From the NCBI RefSeq assembly GCF_000165425.1, contig NW_001799636.1:186001-250000 (forward strand): DNA of 64,000 bases, written 5' to 3'. Every line of letters begins with the position of its first letter. Position 1 is the stretch's first letter. The notes below the pieces were generated by a model. That model made no database searches. It had not been told where the DNA came from and worked only from the letters and a program-made list of their open reading frames with translations. This DNA is from Paramecium tetraurelia. Its lineage: Eukaryota; Ciliophora; Oligohymenophorea; Peniculida; Parameciidae. Positions 17,744-31,541 of this stretch are shown here, one piece after another. The position numbers and the translations under genes are program-made.

Positions 17744-18923
17744 TCAGAAACATTTTCTATGGACTATTTAAGGTCCAGCTTCGTCGTATTCTGATCTTGT
17801 AACCCACATTGCCTAAAATGTTGATAATGATGACAAGATAGATCCTCCTATCCAAACAGAAAACTTTCTTTCTGGTGGAGCCACAACTTTGACTTTCATT
17901 GAAGATGGTGCCAAACCTGATAATTCCTTACTTAACCTCTCAGGGATTCCTGGGAACATAGTTGTACCTCCGGACATAACAACATTTCCATATCTAGATA
18001 AATATAAGATTTATATATTACAAGTCCTTTCTAACATCAATATCTGCCTTCATGATTGATTTAAAAGTTAAGTCATGAATTCCTGGCACTTCCAAACCAA
18101 TAAAGTGTGGCTTGAATAATAATTCTGGACATCTGAATCTCTAATTCTGAATTACAACAACATTTCCATCTGGTAATTCATAAGGCCTGTTACTGGCTGC
18201 ACTTTCTTTGTAAGTTTTCATTTCTGCATCGTAATCCAATGCAACATAGCATAATTTCTCCTTCAGATCTCTGGCTATTTCCAACTCAGCTGAAGAGGTG
18301 AATGATATTCCCAATTCATTCAAAATATTTACAAGATACTGAGTACAAGCTCTTCCTGCCAAATCTATTCTTTGAATGGCATGAGGAAGTGAATAACCTT
18401 CAAAAATAGGTACAGTGTGTGTGACACCATCTCCTGAATCTACAACTACTCCTGTTGTTCTTCCTGAAGCATATAAAGATAGAACAGCTTAAATTTAAAC
18501 ATAGAATGATGGAACATTAAATGTTTCAAACAATATCTGAGTCATCTTCTCCCTGTTAACTTTTGGATTCATTGGAGCTTCAGTCAACAATGCTGGGTGA
18601 TCTTCTGGAGATACTCTTAATTCATTGAAGAATGCATGATGCCAAATTCTTTCCATGTCTAAAATATATATAGAATTCTTACCATCCCAATTATTCACTA
18701 TTCCATTATCTATAGGATACTTTAATGTCAAAACACCTCTTCTAGCTTATGCTTCATCACCTACATAGGCTTCCTTTGTATCCATTCCCACCATTATCCC
18801 TTGATGCTTAGGTCTTCCAACTATAGCTGGGAAACAGCATCTTGGAGCATCATCTCCTGCAATTCCGGCTTTGCATTAACCAGAACCATTATCAATTACT
18901 ACTGCTGGATGTTCTTCAGTCAT
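17744..18923 (-). CDS. Actin
   Basis: Three exons (introns 18659-18682 and 17994-18021) encode 375 residues, the length of conventional actin. It shows the N-terminal VIDNGSG nucleotide loop, AGDDAPR, the second phosphate loop [20 protein letters not shown], and a C terminus ending IVHRKCF. TAA reads as Gln at several places, for example next to the last block (GPQIVHRKCF). The DNase-loop area is divergent ([20 protein letters not shown]), as is usual for Paramecium actins, which form many subfamilies. No key nucleotide-binding residue looks lost. Confidence 0.95.
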
Positions 18924-19823: not shown

Positions 19824-20929
19824 TCATTCGTAATTTAATTTATTTTGTTGGAGTCCTACGAAGATTTATTCCATTGCCTTGCCCAATTAGAAACCGAAAT
19901 CATTCCAATTTCCATACTTCCAATCATCAACAGCAGCAAATATCTAAAAAATTTAAACTTAAAATTACCTCCTAATAGATGTCCTTTCCATTAACAATTA
20001 AATCTTTTCCAATATGATAGATGAAAGAAGTTGGGTTTTGTAAGGCTTCAATTAATACTTTGATTTTTTCAGCCAACTTTAAAGCGTCTTGAGAAGAAGA
20101 CTAGCAAGTCTCGAGAGCCTTTGGGAACTCAGAGATGCCTTCTACAAATGATTGTAAAGCTTAGATGACACTTGAGACAGAACCATCTTCTAAGAGTCTA
20201 ACAGCTTTTTCAAAATCTATCACAATTCCACCAGCTACATTTAAACAGGCTTTAATGTCTTTGGCTTTGATTCCACTTGCATCTACGATTCCATCAAGTA
20301 GTCCTTCAAATACTATTCCTACAACTTCGTCATCAAGAATAACAGCCTCAATATTTTTTGTTTCCTTAAGTAGTTAAACCAGAACAAATCCAATCTGTTT
20401 TCCAAAATCTTCATAGATTTCTGATTTCCAGTCTTTTATAGCAGTGCCTAAGATTACATATTGTAATTACTGATTTCCTTATAGATATCTAGACCATTCA
20501 CAATTAAATTATAACCGATTTTATATGAGAATGTCCATGGGCTTCTCAATTGTTCTAACATGTTAGTGAGAAGTTCTATTTATTAATATTATGTATACTT
20601 GATAAAGCTACCATTTCCTCGGATCCAGATTCACATGCAGTGATGGCGTCTGGAATTTATTAAATGGCTACTCCAATTAATTTGATTCCTTCTTTGACTC
20701 CCTCAAAGGTTTAAGTCTCTAAATTTGAGATAGCTTTGACAATATTATTAATTAATTCTTCTGAATCGTTTAAGCAAGACACTATTTCTTTTACTTCTAC
20801 GTGATCATCAACTTGCACTCCTTCTACAACTCCTTTCACAATTAAATAGACATCTTTAGCGTGGATGTCTACCTACTAAGAATTACCTAACACCAAGAGT
20901 GTTAAGACCATCAACAATGTTGCTTTCAT
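19824..20929 (-). CDS. Secreted repeat protein, paralog of 40300-41395
   Basis: Four exons (introns of 23, 23 and 25 nt) encode 344 residues starting with a signal peptide (MKATLLMVLTLLVLG). The mature chain contains a module seen at least twice: LIVNGxDIY, a variable spacer carrying one intron, then DWK followed by a DFGxQ(L/I)G motif. It is acidic and helical with few Cys. The neighbour 20 kb away shares signal peptide, module, intron positions and length, so the two are duplicates. Function unknown; location is probably the secretory pathway or cell surface. Confidence 0.78.
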
Positions 20930-22278
20930 ATGTTTAAATTTTATAATAATGATTAAGATTTAATCGATTATAATCAGTTAATTATTCATATTAAATTCTA
21001 TAATATAAAATTTTATTATTGGGACTAATAAATTAAAAACATATAGAAATGAAGCATTAATTTCATAGTAAACTCATTTATCATATTATTTTGGCTTGAA
21101 AGAGATATACCTGATAATTTGATTTGAATATAGATTTTTCGATGTTCTTTAAGGATATAATTTTTCATATATTTATAAGATTAATTCATTAATTTATATT
21201 ATAAACATCTTTGAAATACACTTTGTAGTATATTTGCTATGTTAAATCATTAATTGTTCCATAATTATTATAATTTTGTATAGAAATAATAAAGATGGAT
21301 CAAAGTAGTTCCATATTGCCTACTGTTATATTTAAAAACTAAGATAAATAAAGAATTACAAATAAGTATTAATTACTTATTAACTTAAATTAAAAACCAA
21401 CTTTCTATATCTTTCCAAATATATGACATTTTTAGAAATTATTTAATAGAACTTAAATTTAATTTTAAATTAAGTTAATTAAGTAAATATTAAAACTAAT
21501 TATCTTAAGTGAATTGAAATTCATCTATTTAAATTTGCTGAATATTAATAGTTTATTCTTACTCATTATATTGTTTTTAATGAACATTTATTTTCATCTG
21601 AAATTATGTTATTGTTATTCCTCTATTATCAATTAATTATTAACCTATTCATTATATTTAATCTCCATATTATTTATTAAAATTTTTTTAAACTATCTTT
21701 TTCTCTTTATTTCGATTATTATTTATAAAATCAATAATTTTAATAATTCATATTTGTAGATTTCTTCTCAAAATTTGAAATTTTATTTTCCCTTCGGTTA
21801 TAAATATATTGCAATGTCTATTAAAATTAGCTAATTTTGACAGTATTGATTTTGGATCAAATCAACTCTTACCATGATCACTTCATTTAATTTATATAAC
21901 TTTCAGATTCTGTCAAAAGGAAATCAAATAATACTTGTTTCACGACTTTTAAATAAATAAAAATAAATATCATTAATTAACACCTAAAATCTTTATCATT
22001 TCTTCCTAAAATCTAATAATACATTAATAAAAAATTTCATTCAATTCAATTAGCTTTAAAATATTTAAATCCCAATTTCTCAATAAACATATTAATAAAT
22101 CAGAATGAAAATTTATTACCTGTAAAGGATGATCACATTACTTTTTTATGATCTATCCTTTTTTGATACAATTCTAAGTAAACTGTACTTAATATTTAAT
22201 AGAAAATTATGAGAAATTAGGTAAATGAGTATTTTATAGTAATTAAATATGATTCAAATAATATGCATAATAAATTTA
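20930..22278. other. AT-rich intergenic stretch
   Basis: About 1.35 kb of very AT-rich sequence upstream of the secreted-protein gene and downstream of the ubiquitin-like repeat gene. Long A/T runs, frequent TGA in every frame, no recognised coding, RNA or repeat element. Confidence 0.6.
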
Positions 22279-24636
22279 TCAATGATAGCTATTCGGTTCA
22301 ACGAATATAGTTTCATGATCTTTGATTTAAATATTCGCCAAATTTTAATTGTTTTCGAGCTCCTTTCCTTTAAAGATTAATTTGATTTCATTATTTATTT
22401 GGTAATTACCTATTAAGTATTCTCTTATCTCTGAAATTGTTGTCTCATATTACATTTCAATAATTTACTCAAAACTCTCTTTCAAGTTATTGCTTTTGAG
22501 TTTGATGAAGACTTGCTCCGATTTAAAATTGCTATTTTAATCCATATCCACAATTTCTCTAACAATAATTTTTGATGAAATTTTCGGTTTGTCTTATGAA
22601 TTTGTTTTATTTATTTTTCCATCTTATGATTATTAGTATTACACTTTTTAAAATTTCTAATCAGTTTAACTCTAACTTTATTGTTACATTTACTGATTTT
22701 TTGGATTATCTAAATTTTTCTATTCTAAAATTTTAATCCCCTATCCTTTTTTAATTTATACATCCAAAATCTATTGATTCTTTACTCCTTAATCTTTTAA
22801 ATACTATTTTGGATTAATTTTTTTTCCATTTATAAGTAAATCAAAATCATCTACAATCTGATATTAATTTTTAATTTACTGCTGTAATTCTTCTCCTAGA
22901 GTATCATAGGTGGCTTCTAAAGTCTACATTTCACCCTTAAAAATAATAGTCAATTTAAAAATAGCTTTTTGAACAAAAATTTAGGTATTATCTTTTATTT
23001 AATTTTCTTTTAGAGTTTTTGATGAATCTAAATTTCTATCTTTTGTTTTCAAATAGATTTCATAATCTATTGAGAATTACTACTTTATACTCTAAATTAC
23101 TGCTTATAGCTATGTATTTTCATCAAGCATTTACTCTTTTTGCTAATTTTAAAATAATATTATAAGTTTTAAAAACAATTTTTGCATTATTGGCTATTCA
23201 ATTATTCTAATTTTGTCGATGAGAATATTGCACTACAATACGCATCCGCTTGTTATTCCTTCCTGTAGAAAGGTATTTTGTAAGTTTAAGACTTTATTTT
23301 AATCAACTAATTAAATTTTGTTTGGACAATTCAATTTCTCTCTCATTTTTTTCTCTAAATCTTAAATTAATTGATTATTTAGAAATTAATATTCAAATCT
23401 TTATTACTAATATAAAACAGACACTTTGATAGTATTGTTATTATTATAGAAATCATTTCCATTCGATTGCCTAATTTGCTGTTGTTAAGTAGATTCCACT
23501 AATAGTAATGTTCCATTTTGGATATTATACTATTTTAAAGTTTAGTTTTTAAGTAATAATTTCTACCCATTACTTAATTTTAACTCTATATTCTGCAATT
23601 AAAAATTAGATTCAATTTATTCAATGAGTTCTTATATCACTGTTTCATTTTCAACCTCCATTTTTTCAATATTGTTTCGAATCTGAATTTCTAACTTTAA
23701 TGTGTTATTTTATTTTGGAATGACGTTTAATCTGCTGTTTTCTTTAATATATAATTAACTGATTGTTTAATCTATTGGCAACACTTGATAACCCTTCATT
23801 ATGTCAATATTAGTCAAATCAAGTTAGTTTTTTAAGAGATTGATTAGTTCGTTTATTAATGTGTCGGTGGACACTTGTAAAGGAAATAATTATCCATTAT
23901 ATTCTATTTCTATATTGACATAAGATAACGATTGCTAATATGAATCCTTTGGAAGAATCAAAAGACAATTGTTTTTATTTATATCAACTTCAACCAACGA
24001 TTAATCCGGAAGCAATATTTATTTATCATATTAAATACAAATGTCTTATTTTATTTAAAACAAAGCTTTTGCGCTCTCTTCTAATTGAAAAACCTTACCA
24101 TATAAGTCGAAAGAAAAATTTTTACATTCCATTTAATATTTAAGTTTTAACTCTATCATTTGCTTTGATTATAAAAATTAGTTATATGTTTTAACTTCTA
24201 CAATAGATGTTGCGTCTATTTAATTCAACTTTAGAGGAATCTATTTTTTAAGAATTTAATCATTAAAAGTAAGATTAAAGGAATCCTTACTTAACGAAAA
24301 CTATTTCTCAACTTAATCATATAAAACAATATTCAAGTCATCTAAATAGACATAGGCGATTTTTGTTTGATTATTAAAACGCAATTTTATTCCCTATACT
24401 TATTTTACTTATTCAACTTTCCTGAGCTACAATATATCATTCGCAAACATATTTTTTTATATTACTCTTGTGTTTCTCTTAAGTTCAATACCATTTATAT
24501 ATAAACCCAATTATTAATTCTATTCCTTTAATTTTAGCTTTTTAATTATTGCATCTATAGCTTCCTCCACTAAAAGGTTTGAATCTAATTGAACAAATTG
24601 GGCCTTTGATCCCAACACCTCGATTTTAAGATTCAT
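22279..24636 (-). CDS. Tandem ubiquitin-like (beta-grasp) repeat protein
   Basis: One uninterrupted frame of 785 residues with no intron. The C-terminal 80 residues read as a ubiquitin-like domain: IFIKLKS-type first strands, then LIFKGKELENNQNLANIQI and ETIFVEP, matching ubiquitin's KEGIPPDQ/LIFAGKQLEDGRTL layout. The same layout, about 75-90 residues long, recurs back to the N terminus (for example LYINGIELKRNT near residue 50, LLINGKKINPKQYL near residue 640). I count about nine units, separated by short Gln/Asn linkers, the longest before the last unit. No unit ends in Gly-Gly and the protein ends SYH, so processing or conjugation like ubiquitin is unlikely. It may be a scaffold. The repeats are strongly diverged from one another, so the count is approximate. 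Confidence 0.7.
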
Positions 24637-28797: not shown

Positions 28798-31541
28798 TCA
28801 TAATATCTTGATTTCAGAATTTACCTTTTCTTTCTCGTTTACGCTCTCCAAATACTTCAATGACTCAATATAATACTGTTTGGCCTCCTCATTTCTCCCT
28901 AATTATGAATGCACTTAACCCAAGTTCATCAACAACTTTCCCATGTTCGAAATTGCTATCTTTGATTCATAAACTCTCATCAAAATCGATCGACAACTTT
29001 CATAATCGAAACACAACGACATCTCCTCAGCTAATTCAAGCAACAAATCCAAATCATAAACCTCAGTTTATTCCATGCGTTACAAACATTACTTTGCTTG
29101 TTGTCCTCTCTTCTACAATAAGCAATTCAATGCCAAATATCCCCAAACTTCCCCATTGAAAGGCTCATAGATATTCGCTTAGCAAAGACATTCTTCAGCG
29201 ATTGGATCACACAATCTTAAATTTGCTATTCCCAATCCCAACCATGATAAAGAACTATTCGGTTATTGATCTAAAGCCTTCTCAAAAATCACCTTAGCAT
29301 CTTGCCACGATTTCCTCTTCAAATACAAGTACCCTAATCTCAATTGGATATCAAACGATCTCTTTGACTATATCGAAAGTGCCTTTAAGAAGGTTTCTTC
29401 AGCTTCATAAAATTATTCTGTCTAAAAGCATAACGATCCCTTAATCAAATACACATCATAGAATCTGGAATTTTAAGTTAATAACTTCTAAATCAAGGTT
29501 AATGCTTCAGGATAATTCTCATTAAAAATATGAATTTGAGCTTTGATTATATTTATCTTTTGAGTTGTCTTGTCCTTGATTGAAACCAATGCTTTTTCAG
29601 CTAAATCAAATAAATTCCTAGATGCAAAATATTCAATTAATTCTAATTGAATTGAATCAATTTATTCTTAGGTTAATACTGGTGCCTTTTTAGCCTTCTC
29701 TTATTACTCAATCATTTGTTACTTGAAATTAGGCAAAAGATGAGGATCAGGCTATTATTTTGCAAATCTATGATATATTAATAAGCATAATACCCTTTAG
29801 TCAATAAACCCATTGTTCTCATGAATATTCTTTGAGTGCATCTTAAATACTTATCAGCCATATTGTCATTCCCCTGCTGCCTATAGATGAATGACATTAG
29901 CAAGTTAATTAATGTGTTAATAGGTTCTTTTTGCAATAATTCCTTTAAGATTTAAGTAGCTTCCTTAAATCTCTCTCTTCGAATATAGAGACAAGCCATT
30001 AGTAATTCATTTTCCTTATTCCATTCCACATCTCTTACCATTTAGATTAATTGCTCAGCTGCCTTAAACCTCTGTATTTTGAGACAATATTTGGCAAAAG
30101 CTGAGGCTGATGTTTTATCGACCAAGACCATGTTAGTGTAGTATTTGAGTGCTTAGCTCACTTAATTAATAGTTTCGTATTCTTTGGCCAATCTTTGGAA
30201 TTTTTCTAATTGAGACTCTTTGAGTCTTTTGAACACTCTATCTCTTTCCCTGATATTCTATTCAAAAGTTAAGACCAAATCTTCGTGAATGTCATCTTCC
30301 TTATTGTTTTGTATGTATTCTCCTAGAGTGGTTTGCATTTATTCCATCATAAAGACATACAATTCAGCAAATAATCTATCCTGTTCATCCTTATTAACTC
30401 CAACAAACAACCCTTCCTTGGCGAACTTGTCAATACAAACTCTTATAATAGAAGATCGTAGTCTCTCTTGTAAGATATTGTACTTGCCAGAGGTGTTCAT
30501 TTCATTAAGAAAAGATTCTTTTTTCTTAGTCAATTCTAGCCACCTCTGATGAGTCATGCTAATCATGGGTTAAGTCTTAGCTTTTTAATCACTTTAATAT
30601 AATTTGCTGTATTCCTCTTCAAGAGACTTCATGGCTTCCTTGATATCCTCTAATAGATAATGAATAGAGTATACTCTTGAATTGCCATACACATTCAAAT
30701 TTGCTAGGTATCTTTTGTATAATAACAGGTTCTATATAGAGCGATGGTACATCTTCAACTAATGGTGTTAATGCTGGGTCTGTGTTTACTTCAATTTTCA
30801 TATACAATTTATCACAGTTATACTTTGGACAATCAGAACCTTCTTCTTATTTTAAAAATACTCTCACTATAGTGTGAGTACATCCAGGTTCTAATAGATC
30901 AGCTAAATCAAACACTCCCTTGAAAATAATCTAAGTCAATTCAGCATTATTCAAATTCTTAGTCTTACCCTTCTTCAATTTAACTAATTCCTCTTCTGTC
31001 ACAGCTGGTTGTCTAATGAATTGAATAGTGTTTCTTTATTCTAAAATCTCTTCCTCCAATTATCTAACATTAGTAATGTCAATTGAATGTGTTTCCTCAT
31101 ATTAGATGCTGGCAGTTTTGAATTTATCTTCTGAAATGAAAAACAACTTTTCTTACTCAGATAAGGTTTCTAAATGCTACTATTTTTACAATTCTTCCTC
31201 TTCTTCTTAAGCAATGGCCTTCTTCATGGCCTCTTCTTCTTCTGGACTTTTAGAGTCCTTTTTGTTCTTCTTGCTATTCTTCTGATACTCCTCATATTTC
31301 TCCTTCTCCGTCTGTTCTCTGGGTCTTATTTTCCCAAACATATCCTCTCCTTTGTATCGAATCACATTTGCAAATATCGCCGGATTGGTCTCATCAGTGA
31401 TCCTCCAATCATCTGTAAATCCATAAACACCCTTTTATTATGCTAATGTCTGATTACTTTAATTGTCAAATGAATGGTAAGCTTTTCTATAGGGTTATTA
31501 ACTTTTTCTAGAAGAGACAATAATTTGGGATCTGGCTCCAT
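28798..31541 (-). CDS. TPR protein, CFAP70-like
   Basis: Four exons (introns of 26, 25 and 26 nt) give 888 residues. The N terminus (IEKLTIHLTIKGVYGFTDDW) looks like the start of a C2-like beta domain; a Lys/Glu-rich linker and another beta-rich region follow. From about residue 400 the chain is a series of TPR helices, with clear units such as WLGLGIANL and GEVWGYLALNCLL. This order, an N-terminal beta part followed by many TPRs, and the length fit CFAP70, an axonemal protein of the outer dynein arm and central apparatus. The match is by architecture and a few motifs, so the name is tentative; the ciliary role is inferred from the family. Confidence 0.6.

Follow-up and report, generated by a model that had tools for sequence, protein, structure and literature searches.

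In a 64,000-nucleotide stretch of the Paramecium tetraurelia genome (hereafter the window; C217:186001-250000 in the 69.07 Mb, 231-contig assembly used for all genome searches), a single open reading frame encodes nine tandem ubiquitin-like (Ubl) units that are strongly diverged from one another, and a second gene on contig C74 encodes twenty. This array is well supported as an architecture: it varies the known theme of proteins that carry ubiquitin-like domains in tandem, and it stands out by its unit count and its twenty-unit paralogue. Our best reading, to which we assign a probability of about 60%, is that the protein is a non-conjugatable chain of nine ubiquitin-fold domains acting as a scaffold. 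The original prediction had described a dedicated multi-Ubl scaffold, and of this description the dedicated multi-Ubl protein stands as the best reading while the scaffold role is one that we infer. Ubiquitin folds usually occur as single modifiers, as identical repeats of a precursor or as one to five domains on an enzyme, and arrays of nine and twenty diverged units that retain the core but lack part of the recognition surface would be a case of the ubiquitin fold serving as a building block of repeat proteins.

The coordinates, strand, genetic code and length first proposed for the gene proved right, as translation with the ciliate code (table 6) gives 785 residues followed by one TGA stop (Table 1), with 79 TAA or TAG codons of the 785-codon frame read as glutamine. 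An upstream in-frame ATG would add 12 more residues (to 24672), but the start at MNLK is favoured because the first Ubl of the paralogue starts at a matching MLTF. From stop to stop the frame runs for 815 codons. In each of 200 first-order Markov simulations of the surrounding 10 kb, the longest stretch free of TGA in any of the six frames was shorter (median 291, maximum 525). Codon scoring, with five other ORFs of the window as the training set, is a rough test since these ORFs may contain introns; by it the frame also came out ahead of the five other frames in all six segments, with a slim margin in segment 4 (0.03 vs 0.01). The gene lies in an AT-rich setting, as had been claimed, with a GC content of 22-23% at 22-26 kb and of 22-37% across all 2-kb steps of the window. 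The claim of a single exon stands insofar as the frame is unbroken by introns; an intron search nonetheless returned 17 GTA..TAG/CAG stretches of 18-35 nt inside it, five of which (GTA..TAG, 18-30 nt) are a multiple of three in length and would keep the frame open if removed, and we therefore regard the gene as likely, from its sequence, to have no intron. Candidate in-frame introns at offsets 1400 and 1875 of the coding sequence were rejected by eye, as their removal would delete part of a unit's last strand.

Table 1. Features of the nine-Ubl gene and its duplicated neighbour, in window positions. Bit scores compare each unit with the highest-scoring of 300 shuffles of itself.
Feature	Position	Strand	Remarks
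Coding sequence	22279-24636	(-)	785 codons + TGA stop at 22279-22281, code 6
Ubl unit 1 (aa 1-80)	24397-24636	(-)	leave-one-out 13.3 vs 11.7 bits; paralogue profile 28.8 vs 13.5
Ubl unit 2 (aa 81-158)	24163-24396	(-)	23.1 vs 14.8 bits; no Pfam match when scanned alone
Ubl unit 3 (aa 159-237)	23926-24162	(-)	20.4 vs 18.6 bits; paralogue profile 49.6 vs 15.1
Ubl unit 4 (aa 238-310)	23707-23925	(-)	28.8 vs 12.1 bits
Ubl unit 5 (aa 311-400, short N/Q-rich tail included)	23437-23706	(-)	59.8 vs 20.9 bits
Ubl unit 6 (aa 401-485)	23182-23436	(-)	23.6 vs 14.7 bits
Ubl unit 7 (aa 486-557)	22966-23181	(-)	43.0 vs 30.2 bits
Ubl unit 8 (aa 558-635)	22732-22965	(-)	42.1 vs 14.0 bits
Q/K/S-rich linker (aa 636-706)	22519-22731	(-)	no Pfam match
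Ubl unit 9 (aa 707-785)	22282-22518	(-)	40.5 vs 16.5 bits; C terminus NSYH, no Gly-Gly
TPR gene, two overlapping frames	28798-30752	(-)	duplicate adjoins the twenty-unit gene on C74

We set the unit boundaries by eye, at the conserved first strand of each of the nine units, and tested the units afterwards. Their starts are spaced 72-90 residues apart, close to the recurrence of about 75-90 residues proposed for the protein, but this regularity fails between units 8 and 9, whose starts lie 149 residues apart with a linker of about 70 residues in between. Identity between window units is 8-28% (mean 18%). In a leave-one-out test, in which a profile built from the other eight units was used to score the left-out unit against 300 shuffles of itself, all nine units scored above every one of their shuffles, with narrow margins for units 1 and 3 (Table 1). 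A profile of the twenty paralogue units recovered all nine window units far above their shuffles (25.6-66.2 bits, against a shuffle maximum of 18.9), and the window profile in turn placed all twenty paralogue units above all 300 of their own shuffles. These results bear out the claim of strongly diverged tandem Ubl units.

Scans against Pfam point the same way. For the whole protein, Rad60-SLD (3.9e-11), Ubiquitin_5 (9.6e-10) and ubiquitin (5.6e-7) lie above the cut-off and YukD barely so (27.8 vs 27 bits). When units were scanned singly, two of the nine passed a Ubl cut-off, namely unit 8 (Ubiquitin_5, 5.5e-7) and unit 9 (ubiquitin, 4e-8), in agreement with the earlier identification of the C-terminal unit as a Ubl. 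Units 1, 4, 5, 6 and 7 gave sub-threshold matches to Ubl-type families, the best being talin FERM_f0 for unit 1, with RAWUL as the sole match of unit 4 (E 0.078), ubiquitin at 5.8e-5 for unit 5 and TUG-UBL1 at 2.8e-4 for unit 6; unit 3, like unit 2, had no Pfam match. No non-Ubl Pfam domain rises above the cut-off in the nine-unit protein, and no other Pfam domain does so in the twenty-unit paralogue, consistent with the assertion that the gene encodes Ubl units and nothing else.

The original prediction would have been refuted by a lack of beta-grasp folds in most units. We find this fold in the model of unit 3, the one unit modelled, and for the other eight the fold would follow from homology. 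The AlphaFold2 model of unit 3, computed with the nine window units as the alignment, has a pLDDT of 92.9, a pTM of 0.81 and a beta-beta-alpha-beta-beta arrangement, and it predicts that unit 3 adopts the ubiquitin fold. Foldseek matched this model to 461 PDB entries at E up to 0.001; the best 50 of the 461 have TM-scores of 0.73-0.85 by query length and are mostly SUMO, ubiquitin variants, ubiquilin, FAT10 and complexes containing them, the top match being a SUMO. At the sequence level, a 26-unit profile (the nine window units plus 17 of the 20 paralogue units, with the near-duplicates U05, U06 and U08 omitted) hit 418 different PDB sequences at an E-value of 1 or less, of which the best 60 belong to the ubiquitin family or are designs on it. 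Its best match was a chain with nine ubiquitin stretches (1.4e-44), and its best single domain reached 4.8e-11. A phmmer search of the PDB with the whole protein gave weak matches only (best E 0.088), and a full-length model made without an alignment was uninformative either way (pLDDT 30.9).

The polyubiquitin of this genome (e.g. on contig C183, whose units score alike) resembles the array in its head-to-tail ubiquitin folds. Units of polyubiquitin hardly differ from one another and carry a terminal Gly-Gly. By contrast, the array units share 8-28% identity, lack Gly-Gly and have an incomplete recognition patch: no Gly-Gly occurs anywhere in the 785 residues, which end in VEPNSYH, and the sole Gly-Gly of the paralogue sits in a linker. 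The absence of Gly-Gly unit ends, the SYH terminus and the exclusion of a polyubiquitin precursor had all been correctly called. The L8/I44/V70 surface is used by many ubiquitin receptors, and we compared it with the core after aligning the units to the genome's own ubiquitin. At fifteen positions in the core of the ubiquitin structure, hydrophobic residues fill 122 of 135 cells for the window units and 277 of 300 for the paralogue, and the best conserved columns (L50, L67, I61, L56 and L43) belong to the core. At the L8/I44/H68/V70 patch the counts are 11 of 36 and 30 of 80, against a background at other non-core positions of 122 of 433 and 258 of 962. Position by position (8, 44, 68, 70), hydrophobic residues occur in 0, 5, 4 and 2 of the nine window units and in 8, 7, 10 and 5 of the twenty paralogue units, where the alignment near position 8, a turn, is uncertain. 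In the window units position 44 thus exceeds background and positions 8 and 70 do not, so that part of the patch may persist. Among 25 non-redundant units, 52% have Tyr at position 7, where ubiquitin has Thr, and 80% have a hydrophobic residue there.

These counts bear directly on the possibility that the chain is a ubiquitin or SUMO mimic, presenting Ubl surfaces to receptors, the proteasome or p97 and so titrating or gathering them. The tandem Ubl folds, the closeness of the unit 3 model to a SUMO, the hydrophobic position 44 in five of nine window units and the four of 29 units in which two of positions 8, 44 and 70 are hydrophobic are what such a mimic might show. Not one of the 29 units (0/9 in the window, 0/20 in the paralogue) is hydrophobic at all three positions, however, and in the window units the four patch positions stay near background, so that we consider mimicry unlikely and the earlier suggestion that the protein perhaps binds many ubiquitin receptors finds no support as far as the usual face is concerned. 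Because it lacks Gly-Gly and has an incomplete patch, the nine-Ubl protein is neither a polyubiquitin precursor nor a convincing ubiquitin mimic. To judge from their residues, the units look as though they were selected for folding and not for cleavage, conjugation or ubiquitin-type reading. In the scaffold that we favour, the kept buried core would let each unit fold as a stable bead, while the surfaces would have diverged in units that carry neither a Gly-Gly tail nor, in any case, the whole I44 patch. The result would be an extended multivalent scaffold in which different units dock different partners via private surfaces, and the number of units would be free to grow by recombination, as it may have done in the paralogue.

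That paralogue (P0002, at L006:3486-8921 (+) on contig C74) carries its twenty Ubl units and Q-rich linkers in one frame of 1,811 residues as cut, or 1,808 from the first Met. A genome search with the window protein returned the protein itself, three C74 matches that all fall in this one frame and one weak match on C47, by eye a ubiquilin/Dsk2-like Ubl. The reverse search of the genome with the twenty-unit protein returned only itself and not the window gene; a count of two genes is a lower bound because whole-protein searches are this insensitive. The two genes share diverged tandem Ubl units in collinear order, the lack of Gly-Gly unit ends and a duplicated TPR neighbour whose orientation matches, and they differ in unit number, in the Q-rich linkers of the paralogue and in its run of closer repeats, U03-U09, seven units with clearly greater similarity among themselves than to the others. 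The best chain pairs window units W1 to W4 with U01 to U04, W5 with U08, W6 with U11, W7 with U12, W8 with U15 and W9 with U16. It scores 770, a value reached by 6 of 2000 permuted orders. The pairs formed by W2 and by W9 score weakly in it, at 55 each, and W9 taken alone does better with U03 and with U08 (88 each). Nei-Gojobori estimates of dN/dS lie between 0.22 and 0.64 in all 21 pairs among U03-U09 of the paralogue; these are short sequences and non-independent pairs in which conversion is possible, and dS exceeds 1 in five of the six U03 pairs, but the values suggest that the paralogue repeats are under constraint. The window gene and its C74 paralogue make up an ordered pair in which the growth of such arrays can be studied.

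The paralogue also informs a mechanical alternative, in which the protein is a spacer made of stable beta-grasp beads, similar in principle to the chain of Ig domains in titin, with surfaces that matter little. A conserved core with free surfaces would fit such a role, as would the change in unit number from 9 to 20 and the Q-rich linkers between several paralogue units. Against it, the unit order kept between the paralogues, which so few permutations match, suggests that the units are not interchangeable, and the proteins have no further Pfam domain above cut-off, which leaves this alternative improbable in our estimation.

The two array genes also share a neighbour. A TPR gene 4 kb upstream of the nine-Ubl gene is present again on C50 (76% identity) and on C74 (57-67%; the other TPR frame matches C74 at 88% over 76 residues), and the C74 copy adjoins the twenty-unit gene in the same orientation. 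Three successive whole-genome duplications in Paramecium tetraurelia and its sisters are described in PMC10195154, and we infer that the C74 pair derives from one of them, with identities that disagree on its age. On C50, both the TPR gene and the window ORFs at 4.7-6.7 kb are matched, and no match was found there to the window ORFs of at least 120 codons that lie between them. About 20 kb of the window, the nine-Ubl gene included, is missing or moved on C50, as these intervening ORFs are unmatched; within the 7 kb of the C50 duplicate segment that we examined, nothing matched either array better than E 0.8. This segment (L070, C50:125000-132000) holds the TPR gene, then a frame that by eye is glutamine synthetase-like, and then the matches to the 4.7-6.7 kb part of the window.

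We also scored twelve other Ubl domains of the genome with the unit profile, a selection from loci at hand and not a census. Two small Ubls on C63 and C43 rank highest at 53.4 and 49.2 bits, where their shuffled versions do not exceed 12.8 and 7.9; a Dsk2-like Ubl scores 37.1 and ubiquitin 21.6. The SUMO, whose sequence was shortened at a stop or intron, reached 9.2, under its own shuffle maximum of 10.8. That ubiquitin is outscored by seven of the 11 other Ubl domains argues against a further alternative, in which the gene is a decaying former polyubiquitin gene that stays open by chance. Decay would account for diverged units without Gly-Gly and for a C50 duplicate segment without such a gene, but with a frame longer than any simulated, a hydrophobic core and constraint on the paralogue repeats we think it very improbable.

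Tandem Ubls also occur in known proteins with which the array can be compared. ISG15, FAT10 and OASL have two units each, and ISG15 and FAT10 are conjugated through Gly-Gly; like the array, all three are described as having tandem ubiquitin-like domains. The C-terminal array of USP7/HAUSP likewise has several tandem Ubls that are not processed, five of them in a protein that also has a TRAF and a catalytic domain (PMC8567224), but the window protein and its paralogue have nine or twenty and no enzyme domain that we could find. One could imagine the array as a detached Ubl arm of a USP-type deubiquitinase that works in trans with a separate catalytic subunit. The precedent of USP7 and a very weak USP40 Ubl match of the whole protein (E 2.6) point in this direction, but that match lies far under the cut-off and no peptidase family was found in either array protein or in the neighbouring frames scanned (seven in the window and two on C74), and we give this idea very little credence. 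An open-access phrase search of titles and abstract starts, with subscription papers and protein databases outside its scope, found no such array in ciliates; in that search 'five ubiquitin-like domains' was matched and the phrases with six, seven and eight were not. Within that scope the result agrees with the earlier remark that no protein with so many diverged Ubl domains had been described, and the twenty-unit array of this genome is larger still.

As to origin, the two top-scoring small Ubls are single-domain proteins, one on C63 (L059:1486-1746 (+)) ending in THGG-RLFY and one on C43 (L040 near 1500) ending in TQGG-L, and they differ from the SUMO-like exons, so named by eye, on C176 and C161. 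Their ends make them look like precursors of conjugatable modifiers. They resemble the array units by unit-profile score and differ from the arrays in having a single domain with a Gly-Gly near the end; pairwise searches with the C63 Ubl or with one array unit gave no link between these Ubls and the arrays. A more speculative extension of our reading, possible but doubtful, is that the two genes are the first members of a non-conjugatable 'poly-Ubl' family of up to twenty units that arose through tandem expansion of a small lineage-specific GG-ending modifier of the C63/C43 kind, lost the tail and the full patch and became a modular scaffold whose length changes as units duplicate. A genome-wide search with PF18037 found two other loci only and missed the window gene, which marks this family search as insensitive to the array, and a scan of a prokaryotic contig collection gave no array relative, as expected.

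A further, apparently separate tandem protein lies on C181 (L072:706-2103 (-)), where a 466-residue frame encodes five diverged ubiquitin domains (Pfam ubiquitin, 1.5e-42) and ends in DEDF. Used as a genome query, it retrieved its own locus and others of ubiquitin type but not the window gene. It is like the arrays in its tandem diverged Ubls and the lack of a Gly-Gly end, and unlike them in having five units that are closer to ubiquitin. Its sequence shows, alongside the arrays, that this genome has more than one instance of a tandem Ubl architecture without a Gly-Gly end. Elsewhere in the window, overlapping open frames at 19927-20989 (-), two of which gave no Pfam match at E 0.01, carry the repeated motifs KDLIVNGKDIYQE / YNLIVNGLDIYKE. 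At 17744-18923 (-) lies a gene that by eye is actin-like and extends over two frames, presumably split by a short intron.
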